Below, piece by piece: positions 1,083-47,757 of a stretch of 64,000 nucleotides of DNA (the stretch's first letter is position 1; each line of letters starts with the position of its first letter). The notes beneath the pieces were generated by a model, which worked only from the letters and a program-made list of their open reading frames with translations, made no database searches and was not told the origin of the DNA. The DNA is from Ulva prolifera (Eukaryota; Chlorophyta; Ulvophyceae; Ulvales; Ulvaceae). The position numbers and the translations under genes were made by a program. The stretch covers positions 7,509,172 to 7,573,171 of the forward strand of contig CM041201.1 in assembly GCA_023078555.1 (NCBI GenBank), written 5' to 3'.

Positions 1083-3985
<2,903 letters not shown>

Positions 3986-4563: not shown

Positions 4564-6230
4564 TCAAACCTGCTCAGTCGCCGGTGTAGATGCGCCAGAC
4601 ACGCTGGCGCTGGTACCAAACCCATCACATGGCTCCCAATGGACGGCTACGTACTCATGCATACAAATGCCATCATGGCAATTGAGCAAAGAGTGGCAAT
4701 TTGCCATGCATGAGTACGTAGCCGTCCATTGGGAGCCATGTGAAACATACAGAGGGGATGAATACCCGGTGACAGTCGACAGGCACTCTGTGATGATGGC
4801 AGTCACAATGGTGCGGTCCGTGTCGCTCAGCTTGTACTCGTCCTGCAGCTCCTGTCCAACATCCTCGGGGGTGTCATGGTCAAGGTGGTGCTCAAACTCG
4901 ACTGTCTGTGACAACGGGGTGCCGTGGGCCTCGTCCAGAGCGGTCATGCAGAGCTCAATGCACACGGACCGCGGTGACTGCGGCCGGGCATTGCTGCTCT
5001 GCCGGACAGCAAACCGGTAGTCCTCCCCCGTCAGCTCGCACGCCTTCAACGCAGGCAACGGGGCCGATTCCAGCCCGTTCTGGGCGCCCCCGGCAGCTGC
5101 CCCGTCAGCCAGCTCTTGGGACTGTGAACCCTCCCGTAGAGACGACTGCCGAGTCGTGCTGCTGCCGTGTTGCCCTGCGTGGGGGTTGTGGGGGTCAGGG
5201 AGGTGGTGGCTGTGTGCGTGGTTGTGAGCGGGGACCGGCCCGTCTGCCGCGACAGGCGGGGTGTGTGTCCGAGACGGGCTCGGCTTTGGCCGCGCAGGGG
5301 AGAAGAACTGCTCGATCAGGGCTGCTGCGGTCGGCCTGTGCTCTGAGAAGCAAAGGGTGAGTAGCGACCGAGCCCAGTCATCACGGATGCTCGCGACCAG
5401 CTGCGATGTGTCATGCTTTGTCTGGGGATCCGTGACCACCTGTAAACAAGAGCACAGGCGGTTGGTGCGGGGCTGAGGTGTGGCCCGGGACCATGGCAGG
5501 GCGACGGAGGACCGGAGGGGCAGACCTGGGAGTACATCTCGAGCATACACAAGCCGAAGGAGTAGACGTCGTAATCGGGGCTGTGCCGAACCGCATCTGC
5601 ATGATCAGCAAGGGCCTGGTATGCAGACCCGGGCTCGCTTGCCGCATACCGCCGGGCCAACAGCGTCACCAGGCCCAGGTCCCCGATTTTCACGGTCCCC
5701 TCGTTCCCATTGACATAGATTTTGTCGCACCGCAAGTCCCCGTGGATGACCGGGGGATCTTGAGAGTGCAAGTAGTCTATGCCTTCTAGGATCTGTTTGG
5801 AGAACTTGCGAAGAGCATCTGCGCCAAGCTGCTTATGCTCTTGGATAAACTCCCGCAGGTTGCCGGACGTGAACAGCTCTGTGATGAGATTTATCTGATT
5901 GCCGGAGTGCCAGCACTTGAAACATCGAATGATGTTCTTGTGCTTCAGCTTTGTGTTGCGCTGGGTTTCCTGAAGCAGCTGCTGCATTGTGCTGCCATCT
6001 AGCCCCAACACATCCCCTGATATAATGCCCCAGGCTATGTCTAAGCCATTCCGCTCATCGAAGCCTTTGTAAACCACCTTGAATCTTCCCTCCCCGATGG
6101 TATCGCGGTATCGACTGAAGCGCATTTCTTCATCTCGCTGCACAACTCCGTCGTCGTCCAACGAAGCCTCGTCGTGCTCCACCAACGCACCGTCTGTGCC
6201 CCTGTACGTCTCGTGGGAGACTTCATCCAT
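4564..6230 (-). CDS. WNK-family kinase with degenerate catalytic loop
   Basis: Two exons (5526–6230 and about 4564–5439) give roughly 526 residues. WNK kinases lack the usual strand-3 lysine and place it in the glycine loop; here the loop at residues 46–51 is G-E-G-R-F-K with Lys51, followed by V-Y-K-G-F-D-E and the A-W pair at 66–67, all typical of WNKs. The helix-C glutamate (Glu88) and the metal-binding D-L-G (184–186) are present. The catalytic loop reads H-G-D-L-R-C-D-K (163–170), where plant WNKs have HRDLKCDN, so the Arg, Lys and Asn are all changed, and the G-T-P-E-F-M-A-P-E segment is missing. Exon 2 has an acidic segment near 4790–4930 resembling the OSR1_C-like module found after WNK kinase domains. 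It may therefore be a scaffold or pseudokinase. The last ~60 residues come from a foldback repeat, so the true end is uncertain. The start is the first ATG of the open frame. Confidence 0.82.
4625..4743. repeat. Foldback (inverted repeat) element, about 119 bp
   Basis: Arms of about 37 bp (4625–4661 and 4707–4743) are perfect reverse complements around a central stretch of about 45 bases that itself pairs partly. The size and structure resemble a small MITE-like foldback element, or a recent inverted duplication. It lies in the 3' part of the WNK-like open frame. Confidence 0.92.
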
Positions 6231-6948
6231 GGCAAATGCCTAGTAATACAATCTATAACAATCGATTATGCTTTGTACGAGAGGAAAAGCTGAATCCGCC
6301 ACGGCTACAGTGCTGGAGGAGGCCCGAGACCGCGCCTCGGCAGCCGTTGCCTGCGCTGCGGCGCATGAAGCTAGCACACTACTATCTCACACATTTTAGC
6401 CGCGAAAAATCACAGCATTCGGCGTCGCATCACACACGAAGGCAGCGCGCAGAGAACTTGCCGATCAGTCAAACAGCTGGCGCCTCGATGACATGCCAGG
6501 AAGCTGTCGAACGTTTGACAGGAGCCTGTCAGTCGTAGCCATCAAAACCTGGTGCATGTGAGGTGCCATTCAGTCTGCTAGCAGTCAACACCTAGCCACT
6601 CAAGCCGAATTCTGCATGCAATGCATGACCGCCGCGATCCTAGCGCGCTGGCCAGCCGAATTCGCGGCTCCGGCACGCGCAGACCGGTATCCCGCGGGAG
6701 AGGTGTGCAAATCAACACCAAAGGATCTCATCAGTCGCTCGCCTGCGGCCGCACGGCATGCGGTCTGCCCCCGACTGGACTCCGCTGGTGGGTCGCAGCG
6801 ACCCGTCCTTCGCTTCACGCACAGGCGACGAACTGGGTTCCAGTCCTGTCGTCTGAAAGACATCGTTCGGCTCCGTGCGTAAAGGCCGGAGAAGGCACGT
6901 GGACCACCGACTTTACGACACACCTAGCCACCACACCGAGGCATATGC
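6231..6948. other. Upstream region between the WNK-like gene (–) and genes to the right (+)
   Basis: No gene is recognisable. The stretch should contain the promoter of the WNK-like gene, whose ATG is at 6230. I see no clear TATA box or other named element. Confidence 0.4.
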
Positions 6949-20297: not shown

Positions 20298-23156
20298 CTA
20301 CCACTTTTGTTTCTCGTAGGAGTGCATGTCATGCACATTGCCTTCTCTCAATGCTGCATTTGTCCGAGCCTCAAGCCGCTGCTTGCCTCTGTATAGCCTG
20401 CGGCGACCTTCAGTGATGCTGCTGGCACCCAGGTCTTGGAATCCCTGCTTTGCAGCCTGGATCATGAATGGGACTATCCCCGTGATAGATCCTTTGCTAA
20501 CTACTGTGCCAGAGACTCCTTGAGCAATTTTAATGGCTTGTGTGTCACTATGATACCTGGTTTCAGATCCTTTCTTCATCGCCTCTAAGGACCCCATTCC
20601 CCTGTATAGACATCAAATGTAAGCTCTGTCAAACATCTCATGAACAGGGCTTGCTAAAAACGCAGAGCTGCACCTGTACTTCTTTACTTTCACTCCGTTC
20701 TGCTCAAAGTATTGGCCTGGGGCTTCATCAGTGCCAGCAAAAACAGATCCGCACATCACCACACCAGCGCCAAGTGCCAATGCCTTCACGATGTGTCCAG
20801 AGTTTTGTATGCCTCCATCAGCTATGACTGGAACTCCCACAGAGTTACAGTATCTTGCGGTGTGATAGACTGCTGTTGCCTGCCCCCGTCCCACAGCACA
20901 AACCTCCTGCATCACAGCCAAGCTGGATACCCACGTCAACAAGGATACATTTTCGAGAGCCGCAGAAAGGCAGCTGCATCGCATTAAACCAATGGTGTGA
21001 TGCACATGTAGCTGAGGGACCATACCTGCGTAGTGCATATCGATCCAGATCCCATACCCACACGAATGCCATCCGCGCCCGCATCAATTAAGACCTTGCA
21101 CTGCTCCACAGTCACTACATTGCCACAGATGACATCCAGCTTGGGATGGCGTTGCTTGAGGTACTGTAGCATCCCGACCTGGTACGACGAGGCACCCTGA
21201 GATGAGTCCAGGATGACAGCATCAACACCCAGGCGCACGAGCTCCTCCACTCGTTTCTTGTCATCTTCTCGGGTACCAACTGCAGCGCCGCATCTCAGGA
21301 GGCTATTCGCATCGAGGGTGTGCACGTCAGCATTGCTCCTGCATGTACGTCCATGCGCATTCAGCAGGCCGAGCCGCATAATTATAGGGCACCCACCACC
21401 GAAGCAGCCTCCCGAAGCCAGGATGTTGCTCTGATTGGAGCAGAACAGACACACAGCACAGTAGAAGCCCATATCCGGCAATGAAATTCCTGAAAGATAC
21501 CAGCCAGAGGATAGGGCGCACAGGAAGCGGGAGTGGCTGCGCAGAACTGCACCCACGAACTGATCCTCCTTGGTAACTACTGCAATGGCTTCGAAGTCTT
21601 CATGCTGCTTGAGTGCTGCCTCCAGCGCCGCCTTGGTGTCATCCCCTTGCACCACCTTTGGGACCTCAGAAGCCCTGCAGATGCTTCGCCACTTGCAAAC
21701 GTGGTGCCAGTGGCGCAGTGGACCACAGCCCCATGTTGGCATCGATCCAGGATCTGCAGCACTGAATGACAGAAAGCAGGAGCATGAGTCATGACGTATG
21801 AAAATGAACGGAAGCGAGCGCTGGCTCAACTGCGAGGAGGGGACATTGATGCGAGCAAGCAAAGGCAATGGCACGCCATTCTTCAGCCATGTGTGACCTG
21901 AAGCTATCTTGCAGCGGCAGCGCTGACAGACCGCATGGAGTTACCGCGGGCTGGATGGCGCAAAGAGGGCTGCGGACAGAAGCGCACGGAGTCATGACGC
22001 TTTTGACGGTGTCGCTTTCTTTGCTGGTTTTCGTCTTCGAGCATTGGACCAGGCCCAGCAGTGTGCCTTTGGCCTCGCCATCTTTCGTGACATACGCCAG
22101 ACCACCTGCCTTCACGCAGATAGGTGTGGATGGAGAACTCGATAGGCACATAGAGGCATACAAGAGGTGGTGACACAAGCACCAGGTCAATGTCCAAATG
22201 GATACGGCTATGTCATCATGCATACATACGTACCGGCCCGGCCTAGTGCCATGACTGCGTGAGTGGATATGCGTGTGAATTCCTAGCGATGGCTCGATGC
22301 CCGGCCTCTGTCCTTTGTAACTACATACCCACCAGGCATACATACACTACATACATACCAGGCAGGCTGACAATAGTAGATCACGTACCGAAGAAACATC
22401 GGCAACCGTTGCATCAGGTGCCACCACTGTGACTGATGGTGCACATCCAGGCTGATGGCTCTTCACTGCCTCGACTGCTGCAGCCTGCTCTGCCAAGGTG
22501 CAGTTGTAGTGAATGAATCCCATGCCACCCAACTGCATGCGTGCGAAGTGTAAGACGCGGGCTACTTCAGGACGTGCGACTGGCATATTGCGTAGGTCCA
22601 TCCCGATGCGACTGGAGTGCTCGAGAGAGTTGCTCACCTGCGCCATAGCAATAGCCATTCCTGCCTCAGTTACTGTGTCCATTGGGGAACTCAGAATGGG
22701 AACAGCCAGCTTGATGTTGCGAGTGACATGTGAGTGCAAGTCTACCTGCACATGTGGCAAGACGTGACAGGTTCATCGCCCTCAAACCAAATTTGACAAT
22801 TGCTAGCTGCTGTATCGAGGTCATGATCGGTAAGGAGTAAGTGGGCAGCCAACTCTGGATTGCTGACCAACTGTACAAACTAAAACTCATCGCATAAACC
22901 GGCTGACTCGTCTATACCTGATCAGCAGCAAAGTCGATATATCCTGGGTGGAATATCACGTCGTCGTATGTATAGCTGGTGCCGGCAGCGAAGAGCTGCT
23001 TGGCCTCCATACCTGCACATGGAGGAGACTGAGGTGCTGGCTTCGTGCCGAAAACACGAACAGGTCGAAAGCGGTCAAACCAAATGAAATCAACATCCTT
23101 CAGGCTCACAAGACATTACCGTCTGGCACAACATCATCAAGAGGGAATGTTTCCAT
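20298..23156 (-). CDS. IMPDH: Inosine-5'-monophosphate dehydrogenase
   Basis: IMPDH oxidises IMP to XMP with NAD+, the committed step of guanine nucleotide synthesis in the cytosol. Nine exons join in phase: 23120–23156, 22918–23012, 22638–22745, 22389–22532, 21945–22109, 21501–21691, 21026–21302, 20674–20906 and 20298–20601, giving about 517 residues, close to plant enzymes. Visible signatures include the N-terminal segment ending [35 protein letters not shown], the IMP-binding loop G-S-G-S-I-C-T-T-Q with the catalytic cysteine, [10 protein letters not shown], and the flap/C-terminal segment K-K-Y-R-G-M-G-S-L. Between residues ~115 and 225 lies the CBS-pair (Bateman) region, more divergent than usual. 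All key catalytic residues seem intact. The borders of exons 5 and 6, within the CBS region, are the least certain. Confidence 0.95.
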
Positions 23157-35007: not shown

Positions 35008-37686
35008 GGTGACATGCCTGATCCATGGGGTGCTGCATGGTTCAACCTCAGCAGCGGAGCCGTCGTTTCTGGGCGGCAGATACCAGTCGGAGCTCTGTTT
35101 CAGCACATGTGCCCAGCGGACGTGCGGCCACTGCAGCTGACGGTGCACTTCTCTCAGCGCTACCCCGATGAGGCCTGCCCCTACGTGGCAGCTTGCCGGC
35201 ACAAGCAGCACCTCATCTTCAACCCACGCCACATGTACTTCAACAATCTCAAGGAGGCGCTCTTGATCCGGACCGGTGTGCAGCCCCTCAACTCGCAGCT
35301 CGCTGCACCCTTCGTCTGTTGCAAGGAATGGTGCATGCCTATAAAACAAGACCCCACGCAGACGTTCAGCCTCCGGTGCCCTCAGCGTCCCTGACTGTCG
35401 TGCTAGTGCCCTCTGAAAGCGTTTGCGTGGAGCCACCTGAACTCATGTGTGCCGTGTGCTGTGGCCAGTTGAGCTAGGTCATGCTGTTGGCTAGTCGCTG
35501 GCAAGCCTCGCCCCAGTGGAGCTCCATGGAGTGGGGCCCCACTACCAAAGGGGCCGCCTCCGACATTCACCAGCACACATGAAACGCCACAGGCCTGTTC
35601 CAAAGGCTGCCACCGGGTCGGACACCACGCAGCATGGCACACCCCTGGTCCACCTCGCACAGCCTGCCTCACATCCGTCCCGTCATCCTGTCCACAGAAC
35701 CACTGCTCCCATTTCATTGCCGCAACAGAGACCACCCGGCTCCAACAAAGTCACAGTGCTCCACACTCACCGCGCCAGCTCTGCTGAACTGCCACGGCGT
35801 CCCCCCGCTCCACACTCACTGCTCCAGCTCCGCTGAACTGCCACGGCGCCCCCCCGCCCCACACTCACTGCTCCAGCTCCGCTGAACTGCCACGGCGCCC
35901 CCCCGCCCCACACTCACTGCGCCAGCTCCGCTGAACTGCCACGGCGTCCCCCCGCCCCACACTCACTGCGCCAGCTCCGCTGAACTGCCACGGCGCCCCC
36001 CCGTCCCACACCCTAGCCACCCCGCAGAGCTGCGGCGATAGCCGTGCGCACCGCGTGTGTCCTCATCGGCGCCGCCGACGGCCACTGCTGCCGTGCAGGC
36101 CGCGCAACCCAGGTGCTGGAGCTGGTCGAGGGCGAGCGCGAGCAGCTGTGGCAGGCGGCGCGAGACGGCGACCTCGAGGCACACACCGGCCGCCTCTCGC
36201 GCCTGAAGCACACGGCGGTGGCGCGGCCGGGGCAGCCCGGCGCACAGGTGCCCGTCCGGGTGCTCGTGGCCACAGAAACCACCGGGGTGCGCACCCCTCG
36301 CGCGTACTCTACGCTGACAGCAACCCTGTGTGCGGTCGCCGGGACACTGTCGGGGCGGCCCGCGCCTGCCGTGGTGAAACAGCGGGCATGGGATGATGCG
36401 GCGTACCGTGCGTTGCAGTCATGCCGTGTCAGCGGTGCGGGCGGCGCAGCGTTTCTGCGTTGCTGCGCTGGACGCGCGGGACGTCTCTCTGGGGTTCGGC
36501 TGGTGGTGGCGCTCATGCATACATGGTTGTATCTGCACTGCAGGCGTGTGCAATCGTCACCCATCCGTGCGCTACTGCTGGGCGCAGATGTGCCGGCGTT
36601 CAGGAGAGTACCGGGTGTGTGATGGCACTCCGAGGCTCGTGTGTACGGCATGATCACGCGCGATCAGCCAGATCTCAACACACAGCAATCGACATCAGCT
36701 GATGCATGGTGGCGGTGCAGGGCATGGAGGGTCAGGCCTTCTTCTCGCGGCCAGTGCTCGCGGAGTTCCCAGACGGCACCCCGCAGACACTGCTGGACGC
36801 TGTGTACGCGATCTGCCCCGCCGCGGTCGCGCCGCCCGTCGCGTGTCGCCTCCGCACGGACACGTCCGGCGCGGGTCCGGCCGTCCGCCTCAACTGCGAC
36901 GTGCAGCTTGTGATAGAGGACATGGGTGGCGATGGGGGTGCGGCCGGGGAGCGGCCGGCGGCGGCAGCGGAGCAGCCGGCGCCGCGGCCCGACGTGTCGG
37001 AGAGCACTGATGCGGCTAGCGCTGAGCTTCCGGGGGCTGGCATCAGGGCGGAGGATGCGGTGGAGAGCGCGGCGGCGGAGGGTGCGGGCGGCGGGGCTGG
37101 TGGAGGGGAGGGGGGTTCAGAGTGTGAGCGGGACGCAGCGGCCGCAGTGGAGGACGATGGGGTTGCGGCTGTGGATGGAACAGCGGACGGGCAGGTTGCA
37201 CCGTGTGGTGGGGAGTCGCAGGGAGAGGGGGGTGGTGGGGGGCCGGGGACTGCGGCCGTGCCGCTGGGGCCGGAGCAGGGGTGTGGGAGCGGGGTGAGCA
37301 AGCCGAGGGGGGGCGTTGCGGACAGGGGCGCTGCCGCGGCCAGAGCCCCGCTGAGGCGGGTAGTGAGGGGCCGGTTGAGGGAGGGCGTGTCGGTGTACGT
37401 CGGGGGGGTTCGTGCCCATGTGCAGGACGCGGTCCTCCGGACCAGTATGAGCCTGCTGCACGATGTGCTGTTTGCGCCAGACTTGTTCTTGTATGTAGTT
37501 ATCCAGTTTCCGAGGGACGTGGCCGGCAGCCGGTGAGTGTCTGTCATGACCTCGTGCCGTGTTTGTTCGCGCAGGCGTGATGGCCTGGCGCATGATACGT
37601 ACGCGACTGCACACCGCAATCTCTCGGGGGATCTGGCAAAGTCAGCCTCGCATGTGTTGAGCAGAGCGCGTGACCGCAAAGTATGA
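35008..37686 (+). CDS. ATG5: Autophagy protein 5
   Basis: ATG5 is joined covalently to ATG12 and, with ATG16, forms the E3-like complex that lipidates ATG8 on growing autophagosomes. Exons 35008–35275, 36099–36286, 36721–37532 and 37575–37686 join in phase (459 residues without the N-terminus). The first reads ...G-R-Q-I-P-V-G-A-L-F-Q-H-M...P-L-Q-L-T-V-H-F and ends N-L-K-E-A-L, matching the ATG5 'P-x-G-V-L-F-D...W-N-[IL]-T-V-H-F...S-L-K-E-A' region. The second has E-Q-L-W-Q-A-A-R-D-G-D-L-E-A and V-P-V-R-V-L-V. The third starts with S-R-P-V and T-L-L-D-A-V and ends with V-Y-V-G-G-V...L-F-L-Y-V-V-I, the final ubiquitin-like strand region. Between these lies a ~180-residue Gly/Ala/Glu-rich insert, far longer than in plants. 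The acceptor lysine normally lies in the helical region between the two ubiquitin-like folds; I cannot place it with certainty. N-terminal exons are missing. Confidence 0.85.
35762..36010. repeat. 49-bp minisatellite in an ATG5 intron
   Basis: Five units start at 35762, 35811, 35860, 35909 and 35958, each 49 bp, with a partial sixth. They differ by a few bases and include C-runs of 6–7. The array fills part of the intron between the first two ATG5 exons. Confidence 0.93.
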
Positions 37687-37765: not shown

Positions 37766-40071
37766 ATGTTCGTCTCGGTGGCACCGAGGCGCCTGTCCAT
37801 AGCCAGGCGCACGCACGTAGCCAGGTGTCAGAAACCGGAAAAGAAGGATGGTAAAGGGGAACACACTCCAACCGAGAAAGAGCTGGTGGCACAGGCTGTA
37901 GAGGAGCTGCGCAAGGTCTGCGTAGTACCGCATTGCCTTGCCTGCCATGCCCGGAAAAGCTGCAAACGGACATGCCGAGCGACATCATGAGCACTGCCTT
38001 GACGTGTAGGTGAACGTAGATCGCGAAGTGGCGCAAGAGATTATCAAGCTCTGGAAAGAGAGTGGTGTCACGGAGGATCCGGAGGAGCTGCAGAAGCTCT
38101 ACAGGCAGAGATCCAACGCCTCATTGGCCCGATTTGGAGTGCAAATCTTCCTAGACGCCTGTGCATGCTACGCGGTGAGCCTTTCGCGCATGGCGACGTT
38201 TTCCGCTTCTCAAATGCACCGCACCTGTTCCATGCTTAAACTCGTCCTTGCACGCCCGCCATGCAGTGGCCAGATGCCTCTGGAGCACCGATATCGTTCC
38301 TCTAAATGCAGGCGTATGCAGCAGCGTCAGCAATCAATGATGGCGGGGAATTCTTTGGGAAACCGGTGTGAACCCAAGCCACACATGCCTGAGCCCTCGG
38401 CACACAGGACACCGCCACAGGTGTGGATGCAGATCCCCATCGTAACACCAATCCGTTGTTCAGGTGCTTGTCTTCATCTTCTCTGCCGTCACCTTCAACT
38501 ACGCTCTAGCATTGATATCCAATGCACTGTCTCTCGGGGTCTCACTCAGGAGCATGAACCGGTTTGGCACGAACGCGACAGCCTACCTGGAAGCGGTCAA
38601 GGAGATCGCAGGCCCCACGTCCCTGGACTCTATCACACGCGTCCAAAGCGCCATCGACTGCATGAAGATTGCGTCCTCGCTGGAGAAGGTGGACACATAC
38701 CTCAAGGTGCTCACACTCCCTCATGTACTGCTACACAGCCCCCCCCCCACCCAAACTGATCAGCCACCAGTGGCTGATTGCCCAGCTTTAGAAGCCAAAC
38801 TTGCTGTGCGCCTGATTCACCAACAGCCGCTGCCCAGCTATGCTCTCGTCCGCGACAAGCCATCCAACTCGCATGCCCGCCCATCTCACATGTGGCCTGC
38901 ACCCCAGGCACACGCCCCCCCAATCCACCGCTGAACACATCACCACTCCCTCACCCCCGTCTGCAGGAACGAGCGGAGAACACCGAGAGCACGATGCAGA
39001 CCATGGAGCGGCTCGGGGTGTATTTCGTCCTGAACCGCGCACGGGAGCAACAGGGCTTTGAACCCGAGACGTACGGCCTCTCGGAGACCGAGGCAGTCAC
39101 CATCGCCCGCATGTTCACCAAGTGCGACGCCCCCAGGCCGTGTCAGCGCGAATTAAGGGTGCATGAGAGCGCATTGGCACAGGGCGGAGCCGCCCTCGAG
39201 GCTGCCGATCCAGGCAAATCCAGCCGGCGCATGCATGTGCATCAGTAGATACCCTGTACGCGCGTGCATGTGCTGCCGGCCCGCCCGGGGGTGGGCCGTA
39301 AGAACAAGACCAGCAACACAGCAACCCAGCATGTGGCCCTGCTCAGCCGTAGTTGACAATGTCCTGTACAGCATACGGCTCAGTGAATCCAGTTGTACTC
39401 TTCTTCACTTTCCACAGCACACCCACGCCACGCAGAACGCGCACCCGCCCACCGCCATACGCATATGCAGGTACGACACGAACGACGACGGCCGCATCGA
39501 CCGGGGGGAGCTGCAGCAGCTGTGCCAGGACGCCGGCCGGGACATGACGCCGGAGGAGGTGAAGGCCGCGCTGCAGGTCATCGACGAGGACGGCAACGGG
39601 TGCGCACCCCCGCGGCCTCCCCCGCCTCGCAGCCTGCCCCAGACGCGCACCGCCGCAACTGCCTGTGCCATCTGTGGAGTAGCTACCGCAGTGGGGGGCA
39701 ATGGGTGCAGCGTAGCCATCTATTGGACAAGTGTGCCGCCGGGGCGGAACGGCGCCGCACGGCACGGGTTTCGGCAGCTGTCAGTCGCCGCTGAGGCGTG
39801 CCATTCAACCGTGTGAATCGTGAATTGTGTGTGTGTTGGCCGTGAGGGCTGCACACATGCATGATGTACATGCATGCGGAGCGCCGTTCGAAGCGGCTGG
39901 CGGGCGCCCGCGGCGCCACCTGGAGGGGCGGTCAGAAGGTGGGGCGCATGCAGGTACATCGAGTTCAACGAGTTTGTCGCATTCTGGGCCGACCCGCAGG
40001 CCAAGGTGGCCGCGGCGCAAACGTCCGGCGCTGACGCCGAGGCCGTGCAGCCGGACCCCAAGGCAAGCTAG
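37766..40071 (+). CDS. Membrane-anchored EF-hand protein, probably organellar
   Basis: Six exons (37766–37915, 38010–38174, 38464–38706, 38967–39121, 39471–39599 and 39954–40071) join in phase to give 319 residues. The first ~25 residues are Arg/Ser/Ala-rich without acids (M-F-V-S-V-A-P-R-R-L-S), like a plastid or mitochondrial targeting peptide. Residues ~106–133 form a hydrophobic membrane segment. Two canonical EF-hand loops follow: residues 240–251 (D-T-N-D-D-G-R-I-D-R-G-E) and 276–287 (D-E-D-G-N-G-Y-I-E-F-N-E), the usual 36 residues apart, so they should form a working calcium-binding pair. The last intron cuts the second loop. The C-terminus is Ala/Asp-rich. Calcium-dependent regulation of an organelle membrane process is inferred; the partner is unknown. 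The penultimate donor (AA/GTGCGA) was chosen by phase. Confidence 0.8.
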
Positions 40072-44923: not shown

Positions 44924-47757
44924 ATGGCGCGTCTGGAACTTAGCGGTGGCGCAAGGCAATTCTACGAGCAAGCTCTACATGAAAGTAAGTACCGCACCGC
45001 CTGTGCAATATAATAATACTATCTCTGTGTCTGGACTCCATCGTTTATGCTCTTCCGTGGCAGGGCGCTGCGTACTTCCGGTTCAAAACAGTGCTGCTTG
45101 CAGGCGATGATGAAGGCAGCCCGCCTGCGCCCGAAAACACAGCAAAAGGCGCCAAAGGCTCCCGTCGGAAAGATCGCTCGCCTCTCAAGGCTGTATCGCC
45201 GAGCAATGCCAGCGGCGCGAAACCGAGCAGAGTGGTAGCGCCCGACGTTGCAGCAGATGCCAGCCAGGCGCCCGATGAAGATGAAGAAGCCGCGAAAGCA
45301 GGCAAAGATGACTCAGGCTCGGTGTCTTCGGGGAGTGAGGAAGACTCAGATGCGAGCGGCACGTCTACGTCAGACGACGGGTCCGACATAGCGTCAGACT
45401 TGGAAGGTTTGCCGGTAACGTCCGTTGTGGGGCTCACGGGGCCGTCCAAGAAGCAACGAAGAAAGCAGGCGAAGCCGTCTGCCTCTCAAGTGATCACGGA
45501 GGCAGGGATGGCGAGCAAGCTGGGGGTTGCTTTCAGCAGAGTCCTGCAGCGCAGCTCCAATCAGGGCATCATGCAGGTGCGCTACCTCCACACAAACGCG
45601 GTGCCAGGACGGCCTGTGCGCCACAACAAAAACCGATGTGCCTGTCTGCCCACGGCGTGTTAACGTTCGCGGCGCTGCAGGGGAGCAAGTCCGTGCAAAA
45701 ACGGAAACGAGAGGAGGAGGCAGAGGCTGCCCAAAACAAAGTGGCCAGGCAGGAGCGGCGGGAGCGCAAGAAGCGTGGGCACGTCCAGGTGCCGTTCAAA
45801 GGACGGGATCCAGAGCACGATGCACGCGAGAAGACGCTGGTCAGCGTTGCCACCAAGTGCGGCTCGCCGGCCCCAGCCGCGCCTGCTCACATCCACGCCA
45901 CGGCCACGCTGCCTGCCCTTACATTCCCAGTTTCCATGCCTCGGAGCGTGCCCTCCACGCATGCATGCCCACCACCTCGGCCTCGGCTCTCAAGCCCGAG
46001 TTCACACACACCCCCCGGTGTCGCGCGTGCATAAGTGGCCTACATAAGTGGCCTGCATAAGTGGCCTACATAAGTGGCCTGCATAAGTGGCCTGCATAAG
46101 TGGCCTACATAAGTGGCCTGCATAAGTGGCCTACATAAGTGACATAAGTGGCCTACATCAGTGGCCTACATAAGTGGCCTACATAAGTGGCCTACATAAG
46201 TGGCCTACATAAGTGGCCTACATAAGTGTGCGGGGGTGTGTGCTCCGTGTAGTGTCAGACCACTGCCCCTTTGTAGTGTTAAAACACTGCAGAACACTGC
46301 GGTGGTGGTGGTGGTGGGCAGCGATGTCATTTGTTTGGTCTGGGGTGCACCCTGCCATATGTGCAAATGCATGCAGTGGATGCATGTGGCCATTATAATC
46401 CTCTGAGCATGGAACGTTCATGCTCCATCTGACGAGTGCAGACATGTGCGCAACTCAACAGCCACAGTATCATTACAGTGCACCACCGGTGGGTTGTTGC
46501 TGAACAGGGGGGGTATGCTGGCATGTATGCACTGACAAGAGGACAGGATGCACTCCACCACAGATAGAAGTCTCAGAACTGTCGTGTGTGCAACTGTACA
46601 TGTGTCAATTGGGTGTGTCCTTCGCCAGGGCTTGGACACCTGCTTCGAGTGGACCGCGTGCCGAAGGGGAGTCTGAACATACGCAGACGCCAGAGGAGGT
46701 GCTGAGTTGATGACCCTGTTCTTGAGCAGTTTGCTGGCTCTGCGGTGCTACCTGCCTCCTCAGCGTTGTCCTGGTCAATTATGTGCCAGAACAGGTGCCT
46801 ACAATCATGCACATCCCCATATCAGGAGACTCACCATATTTCCTTGCACCGCAGCACAATCAGGCGCACCACTCTGAGACTGAAGGGCCACAACACTGAG
46901 ACACAGCAGCGAGCATGCCGCAGTCCCTATTCAGGAGCTTGCGGCGAGCTTGGGGCCAGTTGCTGGGGCATGTCCTGGGGCAGTTCGCCTTGATGAGGTC
47001 CGGGCAATCATACACAACTGATTGCAGACGCCCTGTCAAGCGCCAGTCACTGCATCAACGGAGCCAAGGAATTCATGACCGACTTCTGCGTGAGGTGTGG
47101 AGCGTTGATGGCGGTGCTGTGGTGCAGGGGCGTGGTGCAGCTGTTCAATGCCATCAGCAAGGCCCAGACTGCAAAGCGGCAGGCTGATGCGTCAGGTGCA
47201 AAGAAGCGGGACGCTGTCAAGTCGACCAAAGCAGCCCTGCTGGGGGCACTGAAGCCCGAGGCCAAGCCTGCTGGTGCGAGACTGCCCTTCCACAGTGCCG
47301 CCACCGCTCCCCATGCGGACACTAGAGATCATCGTTGACCGACATGACCATCTCGGGCAGAATTCAGAATTGACAAATGCATTTGTGCAGCACCCACATC
47401 CCGGTGGTCGATCCAGCTGACCGTTATGCGACGCATTGTAGGCTTTGTGTCGCTTCTGTGTCGCTTCTGTGTCGCTTGTTGTTATCTCGGAGGCACACGT
47501 TCGGTGCGTGCGGACATCATCGCAGCCTCACTGATGAGGGTGAGATGATCGCCGTGTGATCGCCGTTGTCGCCTTGTGACACTCGTGGGCATGCAGATAC
47601 GGAAACGCCGGGATGGAAGGTCTTGCAGCAAGGCTTCACAGGAATGCACGAGGCGGGTAAGCTCAAAGATTTAGATAGAGATGGTAGTAGTGACGATGAC
47701 GTAGGTGTAGACGAGGTTGATGATCAGGTGGACAGCGATGACATTGACCAGTGGTGA
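44924..47757 (+). CDS. RRP15: Ribosome biogenesis protein RRP15
   Basis: RRP15 is a nucleolar factor needed for 60S ribosomal subunit assembly and pre-rRNA processing. Likely exons are 44924–44984, 45104–45576, 45681–45856, 47128–47273 and 47597–47757 (about 338 residues). After an acidic Ser/Asp-rich N-terminal region come the family features: a helix with L-G-V-A-F-S-R-V-L, a long Lys/Arg/Glu-rich helix, then L-V-S-V-A-T-K joined to G-V-V-Q-L-F-N-A-I-S-K, the strongest RRP15 signature (R-G-V-V-x-L-F-N-A-[IV]), and a final P-G-W-K-V-L-Q-Q-G-F segment with an acidic tail. The signature is rebuilt exactly across the 1.27-kb intron, which supports that splice. The first exon and the acceptor of exon 2 (45092 or 45104) are less certain. 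A TGTAA motif lies 57 bases after the stop. Confidence 0.88.
46029..46228. repeat. 13-bp tandem repeat in an RRP15 intron
   Basis: About fifteen copies of ATAAGTGGCCTAC, or the TGC-ending variant, are arranged head to tail, with one broken unit near 46137. The two variants are interspersed, as expected from unequal exchange or slippage. Confidence 0.95.
46700..46775. repeat. Dispersed repeat copy in an RRP15 intron
   Basis: This segment (GACCCTGTTCTTGAGCAG ... GGTGCTACCTGCCTCCTCAG) resembles 43330–43405 and, more weakly, 60645–60690. Read on the – strand, the two best copies even share a run of identical amino acids, which shows the similarity extends over about 70 bases. Confidence 0.6.

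Follow-up and report, generated by a model that had tools for sequence, protein, structure and literature searches.

The window (the whole stretch of 64,000 nucleotides analysed here) carries on its minus strand a gene for a WNK-like protein in which the catalytic loop, HRDLKCDN in the family, reads HGDLRCDK, and the question that this raises is whether the gene is a broken copy, an atypical but working kinase, or a member of the family that has exchanged ordinary phosphotransfer for another role. The gene starts with an ATG at 6230 (minus strand), an in-frame stop lying immediately upstream, and was modelled as two exons with 235 and 291 open codons, giving a protein of 526 residues:

5526..6230, minus strand: exon 1, the N-terminus and the kinase-like domain up to helix F (aa 1-235), an open-frame reading
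5440..5525, minus strand: predicted intron of 86 nt, GTCTGC...TTTACAG, phase 0, GT-AG, from sequence only
4564..5439, minus strand: exon 2, the rest of the kinase-like C-lobe, a linker and the CCT-like domain, with the stop at 4564
4625-4743: perfect inverted repeat (arms 38 nt, loop 43 nt) within the 3' end of the WNK-like coding region

If the intron were kept unspliced the frame would end at a stop at 5316, ahead of the CCT-like domain. Its GTCTGC donor may be compared with the GTCTGA donor in the model of a canonical WNK from the same genome (see below). A shared intron position was considered and rejected; both genes have phase-0 introns here but the alignment does not bring the two together, and for this reason homology of the introns is not claimed. 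A helix-G stretch hidden in the intron was also rejected, nothing similar being seen by eye in its three frames. Two open exons in coherent frames with no sign of decay, a G+C content by codon position of 0.61, 0.45 and 0.70, the lack of motif remnants in other frames (three minus-strand frames) and a genome search with the window protein that gave a 99-100% match at the gene's own place only all speak against a decaying pseudogene or an error of assembly or splicing, which could otherwise draw on the perfect repeat within the predicted coding region and on the purely predicted status of the intron; this explanation we hold to be very improbable. The inverted repeat was found by genome search at a single place in the assembly, which, as far as that search reaches, rules out a multi-copy element. 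Whether a genuine foldback or an artefact of assembly, it makes the end of the model past about aa 468 (the last ~60 residues) provisional, since it falls there.

The features by which the kinase-like domain can be placed are as follows:

6078..6080, minus strand: WNK-type lysine K51 of the glycine loop, kept (alignment)
6027..6038, minus strand: IAWG, the beta-3 position without lysine (Gly here; WNK1 has Cys and the canonical algal WNK has Asn)
5721..5744, minus strand: HGDLRCDK catalytic loop (translation and alignment with WNK1 and the canonical WNK)
5670..5681, minus strand: DLGL motif, kept (translation and alignment)
5574..5669, minus strand: eroded activation segment VTLLARRYAASEPGSAYQALADHADAVRHSPD, without GTPEFMAPE (alignments and frame scan)

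The window protein scored 106.6 bits against Pfam Pkinase and, on account of this score and of the frame open across both exons, the domain is taken to be a real kinase-like domain. It is closest to the WNKs; among the best 60 of 1708 PDB matches the top 15 were all WNK1 or WNK3 (140-146 bits), with the next at 74.5, and identity to the canonical algal WNK was 44% over 208 columns. The distribution of lysines is also that of the family, with K51 in the glycine loop/beta-2 and none in beta-3. The original prediction had been of a WNK-family protein at 5690..5780 with a broken catalytic loop, and the details agree. The loop is found on the minus strand, at 5744-5721 (one plus-strand frame across 5690-5780 contains two stops), and alignments against WNK1 and the canonical algal WNK show that the HRD arginine, the loop lysine and the metal-binding asparagine are all changed. 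The catalytic Asp (D165) and the DLG remain (DLGL at 5681-5670), as does the WNK lysine (6080-6078), and with them D184, the alpha-C Glu and the helix-F Asp. Neither of the family motifs HRDLKCDN and GTPEFMAPE occurs in the window protein, and GTPEFMAPE, the absence of which had also been predicted, was not found in any of the three minus-strand frames between 4401 and 6500. The only match in a scan of the same frames and interval for HRD, DLK..N, [AS]PE and GT[PL][EAQ] was an unrelated GTPA, read in another frame; as the scan showed no motif remnant, a correct activation segment hidden in a different frame was rejected. The activation segment reads ...AASEPGSAYQALADHADAVRHSPDYDVYSFG. Within it Ser198 (5639-5637) lies opposite Ser382 of the WNK1 T-loop in two alignments out of three and is one residue off in the third; judged by this position the canonical WNK might phosphorylate it. 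Between CMLEM and the C-lobe CFS, the part that follows helix F, the protein is 11 residues shorter than its canonical paralogue by a hand count on the alignment, although how this shortening is divided varies with the aligner.

The second, canonical WNK that the original prediction had proposed to look for is present in the same genome. That genome has introns and gave 38 exon-by-exon matches to the chlorophyll a/b-binding family, and so belongs to a photosynthetic eukaryote. A search of the assembly (88.9 Mb in 44 contigs) with the window protein returned, at E up to 1e-8, the gene itself, a locus on contig C8 and a more distant kinase at C5:518614. The six-exon model of the C8 gene contains HRDLKCDN, DLGL, GTPEFMAPE and PYSEC, and its end aligns with the CCT-like domain of the window protein, with an OSR1_C score of only 13.0 bits. 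Identity to WNK1 over the kinase domain is 53% for the C8 protein and 39% for the window protein. From these motifs and identities it follows that a canonical WNK is present and that the window gene, its relative, has evolved faster. Searches made exon by exon give lower bounds and further WNKs may therefore have been missed. Besides K51, the window protein keeps the DLGL and a leucine of the beta-5 strand, which we take to be residues of the WNK halide pocket, and these might suggest a WNK-like nucleotide or chloride sensor that acts alone and does not pair with the canonical WNK. The pocket Phe, presumably F283 in WNK1 numbering, is Cys in the window protein, which argues against such a sensor, and we regard this as quite improbable.

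How far catalysis has been eroded was judged against 107 positions at which the canonical algal WNK has the same residue as WNK1, and of which the window protein retains 65. Retention was 6/19 in the activation/P+1 segment vs 59/88 elsewhere (Fisher p = 0.008, with the boundaries of the segment drawn afterwards), and erosion is therefore strongest in that segment; between the catalytic loop and the DLG, 18 of the 23 conserved positions are kept. As a control nine other kinase loci of the assembly were scanned, eight of them the best-scoring of 149 Pkinase matches, and thus a favourable sample, and one from the search with the window protein. The catalytic loop could be read within one exon in seven of the nine, and the loop lysine and asparagine were kept in all seven. 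One of these, control locus L003, has HGD with the rest of the loop normal, and for this reason a change of the HRD arginine alone is no sign of inactivity. According to one source, a pseudokinase is recognised by the loss of two of the three residues beta-3 Lys, HRD Asp and DFG Asp (PMC12254500). In the window protein only the beta-3 Lys is absent, as in WNKs generally. The triad rule thus fails because both catalytic aspartates remain, and weak activity is therefore possible. Of the proposal that the protein is a pseudokinase, what stands is its WNK ancestry and the loss of the loop and activation-segment motifs; the triad rule gives it no support and HGD by itself is uninformative. We infer from the altered motifs that the window protein would no longer phosphorylate substrates, with residual kinase activity possible.

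A comparison with the Tribbles proteins bears on this point. The loop of TRIB1 is given as LGDLKLRK, with Lys at the Asn site in both TRIB1 and TRIB2 (PMC7586955), and in TRIB1 this loop lysine is described as stabilised by the catalytic aspartate (Lys210, Asp205) in a protein whose pocket does not bind nucleotide (PMC4718504). For TRIB2, weak ATP binding and a low, metal-independent autophosphorylation are described in the same source (PMC4718504). The window protein resembles both in having Lys at the metal-binding Asn site with the catalytic Asp kept, and TRIB1 in having Gly for the HRD Arg. It differs from them in family, and in that the Tribbles proteins have reportedly lost the DFG and carry a degraded glycine loop and a COP1-binding tail (PMC4718504). 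The autophosphorylation of TRIB2 in spite of its Lys at the Asn site (PMC7586955; PMC4718504) is one of the points in favour of an atypical but active WNK, that is, a non-RD (HGD) kinase tolerating Arg for Lys and Lys for Asn and having a different substrate site; D165, the DLG, K51, the alpha-C Glu and the helix-F Asp are all kept, and HGD is found in an otherwise normal kinase of the same genome. Such a kinase would, however, have to work with both the loop Lys and the Asn changed, when these are kept in every readable control locus (seven of seven, from nine scanned), and with the APE/P+1 segment lost (six of 19 conserved positions retained), and we consider it unlikely.

Towards the C-terminus two further features were found:

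5005..5016, minus strand: RFAV, an RFxV-type motif at aa 377-380, ahead of the CCT-like domain (translation)
4771..4971, minus strand: probable CCT/OSR1_C-like domain, aa 392-458 (Pfam and PDB searches)

Residues 392-458 scored 18.5 bits against Pfam OSR1_C, under the cut-off of 22.4, and 14.1 bits against CCTL2_WNK, under the cut-off of 27. The PDB matches of this stretch at E up to 10 were WNK1 (2lru, which we take to be its autoinhibitory CCT-type domain) at 0.041, WNK2 (6elm/6fbk) at 0.49 and one unrelated structure at 0.96, none of these E-values being significant singly. The 6fbk structure combines, to go by its entry in the reference list of PMC12266122, the CCT-like 1 domain of WNK2 and an RFxV peptide. 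It is probable from these matches that the window protein carries a C-terminal CCT domain, the expected domain at the expected place for a WNK. Residues D424 and E432 within it are acidic, lie eight apart and fall in the same column in all three algal genes (the third is described below). This spacing is that of E484 and E492 of NRBP1, with the reservation that NRBP1 was compared by description and that the CCT match is sub-threshold; the NRBP1 residues are reported as the predicted contacts, supported by mutation, of the arginine in the R-Phi motif (PMC12266122). A second RFxV, the RFKV at aa 49 in the glycine loop, is probably a chance occurrence, RFxV being a short motif that arises by chance; the model of the canonical algal WNK has none. 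A genome search with PF12202 (OSR1/SPAK) failed to recover even the CCT stretch of the canonical WNK, and PF03522 (cation-chloride cotransporters) gave no match in the genome but none in the controls either.

That search with PF12202 did give a hit at C5:1507690, at 20.2 bits and thus below the cut-off. Upstream of it, in the right order and on the right strand, are exons that can be aligned to the WNK kinase domain, followed by the CCT-like stretch:

G000:C5:1506048-1507900: probable fully degenerate WNK-like gene, exon model and CCT-like stretch

The exon stretches, which were picked by eye, are GFDNDEGRECDW, HPLLLRIQQVWASDACINVV...NNLRQYLAIHQHVGEPAIRKLSRQLLK, PLHKVSICDVHVRAGDARVCVMPTFL, EMYIRDASVSSWPLARVRDRVQSG and LLDHPWLN. 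The model has HKVSICDV in place of HRDLKCDN, has lost the DLG and is missing both Asp; a glycine-loop exon was not found at the locus. When the window protein was compared with this region by tblastn the E-value was 2.7e-7 in 9 kb, part of the match (upstream of locus position 6312) falling within a modelled intron, where the exon boundary is provisional. The profile score of the model was 23.7 bits, against a best of 6.9 among 2000 shuffles. In a genome-wide search with the model (four candidates scored) the window gene was the sole non-self match up to E 10, at 2.4e-4, and the canonical WNK was absent from the matches over the same range. Against Pfam Pkinase the model scored 14.2 bits (cut-off 31.7) and in the PDB its best match was RAD53 at 0.071, with WNK3 at 0.96. 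The locus is therefore probably, although not certainly, a fully degenerate WNK. The probable CCT domain, the RFAV motif and this third locus, none of which formed part of the original prediction, are the best clues to function.

The closest known systems are WNK1-WNK4 of animals and the plant WNKs, together with the canonical algal WNK on C8. With these the window protein has in common the ancestry of the kinase domain, the glycine-loop/beta-2 lysine, the DLGL and the probable CCT; it differs in having HGDLRCDK where they have HRDLKCDN, and in being without their GTPEFMAPE. NRBP1 and NRBP2 show the same layout as the window protein, being WNK-related, with a kinase-like domain and a CCT (in the window protein a probable one), and occurring beside a canonical WNK. 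The TSC22D, WNK and NRBP families reportedly evolved with Metazoa, to judge from a paper title in a reference list. One source reports NRBPs in Metazoa and not in plants, fungi, choanoflagellates or other eukaryotes (PMC12254500). NRBP1 is described as an animal CCT pseudokinase close to the WNKs, with the VAIK, HRD and DFG motifs all lost, which joins WNK1 under osmotic stress (PMC12266122). The same text reports that recombinant NRBP1 activates WNK4 in vitro, and that heterodimers of the NRBP pseudokinase and WNK1 kinase domains were modelled, with co-immunoprecipitation in support (PMC12266122). Whereas NRBP1 is without VAIK, HRD and DFG, the window protein retains both aspartates (the NRBPs were compared by description), and as D165 and D184 are kept its assignment to the NRBPs was rejected; in degree of loss the model of the third locus is nearer to them. 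By analogy, a live WNK accompanied by one or two eroded CCT-bearing WNKs would be the same layout in the alga as the WNK-NRBP arrangement of animals.

With moderate confidence we therefore favour a reading in which the window gene encodes a member of the WNK family, probably no longer capable of ordinary phosphotransfer, that serves the canonical WNK as scaffold or regulatory partner. WNK ancestry, an altered catalytic loop, an eroded activation segment, the kept Lys and both Asp, an open frame and a canonical WNK in the same genome are what can be read from the DNA; the partnership is something that we infer by analogy. On this proposal the Lys at the metal-binding Asn site would pair with nearby aspartates and hinder the binding of magnesium (compare Lys210/Asp205 of TRIB1). 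The kinase-like domain would pair with the kinase domain of the canonical WNK, the CCT domain would dock RFxV-type peptides and the protein's own RFAV might dock on another CCT. When the cell meets osmotic or chloride stress, pairing and docking could in this way hold the canonical WNK or switch it on, as is reported of NRBP1 in animals. It may further be that, outside animals, the alga independently converted duplicated WNKs into two CCT-bearing partners of the canonical one, the first partly and the second fully dead, as a counterpart to the WNK-NRBP osmotic switch of animals, or that such pseudokinases predate animals and have been overlooked, a suggestion that is tentative and on present evidence rather doubtful. 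If true, live WNKs paired with dead relatives would not be confined to animals but would have been reached elsewhere too, in an organism in which one canonical WNK was found and in which the arrangement could be tested simply, and the question would arise whether kinase-dead WNKs generally serve osmotic or chloride sensing. The live, partly eroded and fully eroded genes would then represent stages of pseudokinase evolution within one genome.

None of the titles and abstract openings searched, in a body of literature with few subscription papers, described a WNK pseudokinase from an alga or plant. Relatives of the window protein were sought in a collection of viral contigs, where none of one candidate stretch was confirmed, and by an alignment-based search, where 0/44 stretches were confirmed in viral contigs and 0/72 in prokaryotic genome contigs; these searches say little on algae because the collections are viral and prokaryotic.

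Several other features were observed in the same DNA. At 1401-3151 a (CA)n tract with about 878 copies and 99% matches is flanked by two stretches that match consecutive parts of a RabGAP-TBC domain on the plus strand. Open frames elsewhere in the window include one at 20984-21874 (minus strand) whose IMP dehydrogenase/GMP reductase domain scored 120 bits and one at 39163-39816 (plus strand) with a pair of EF-hands (36.4 bits). Tandem repeats were found at 35761-36011 (49 nt, 5.1 copies) and at 46030-46228 (13 nt, 15.6 copies).
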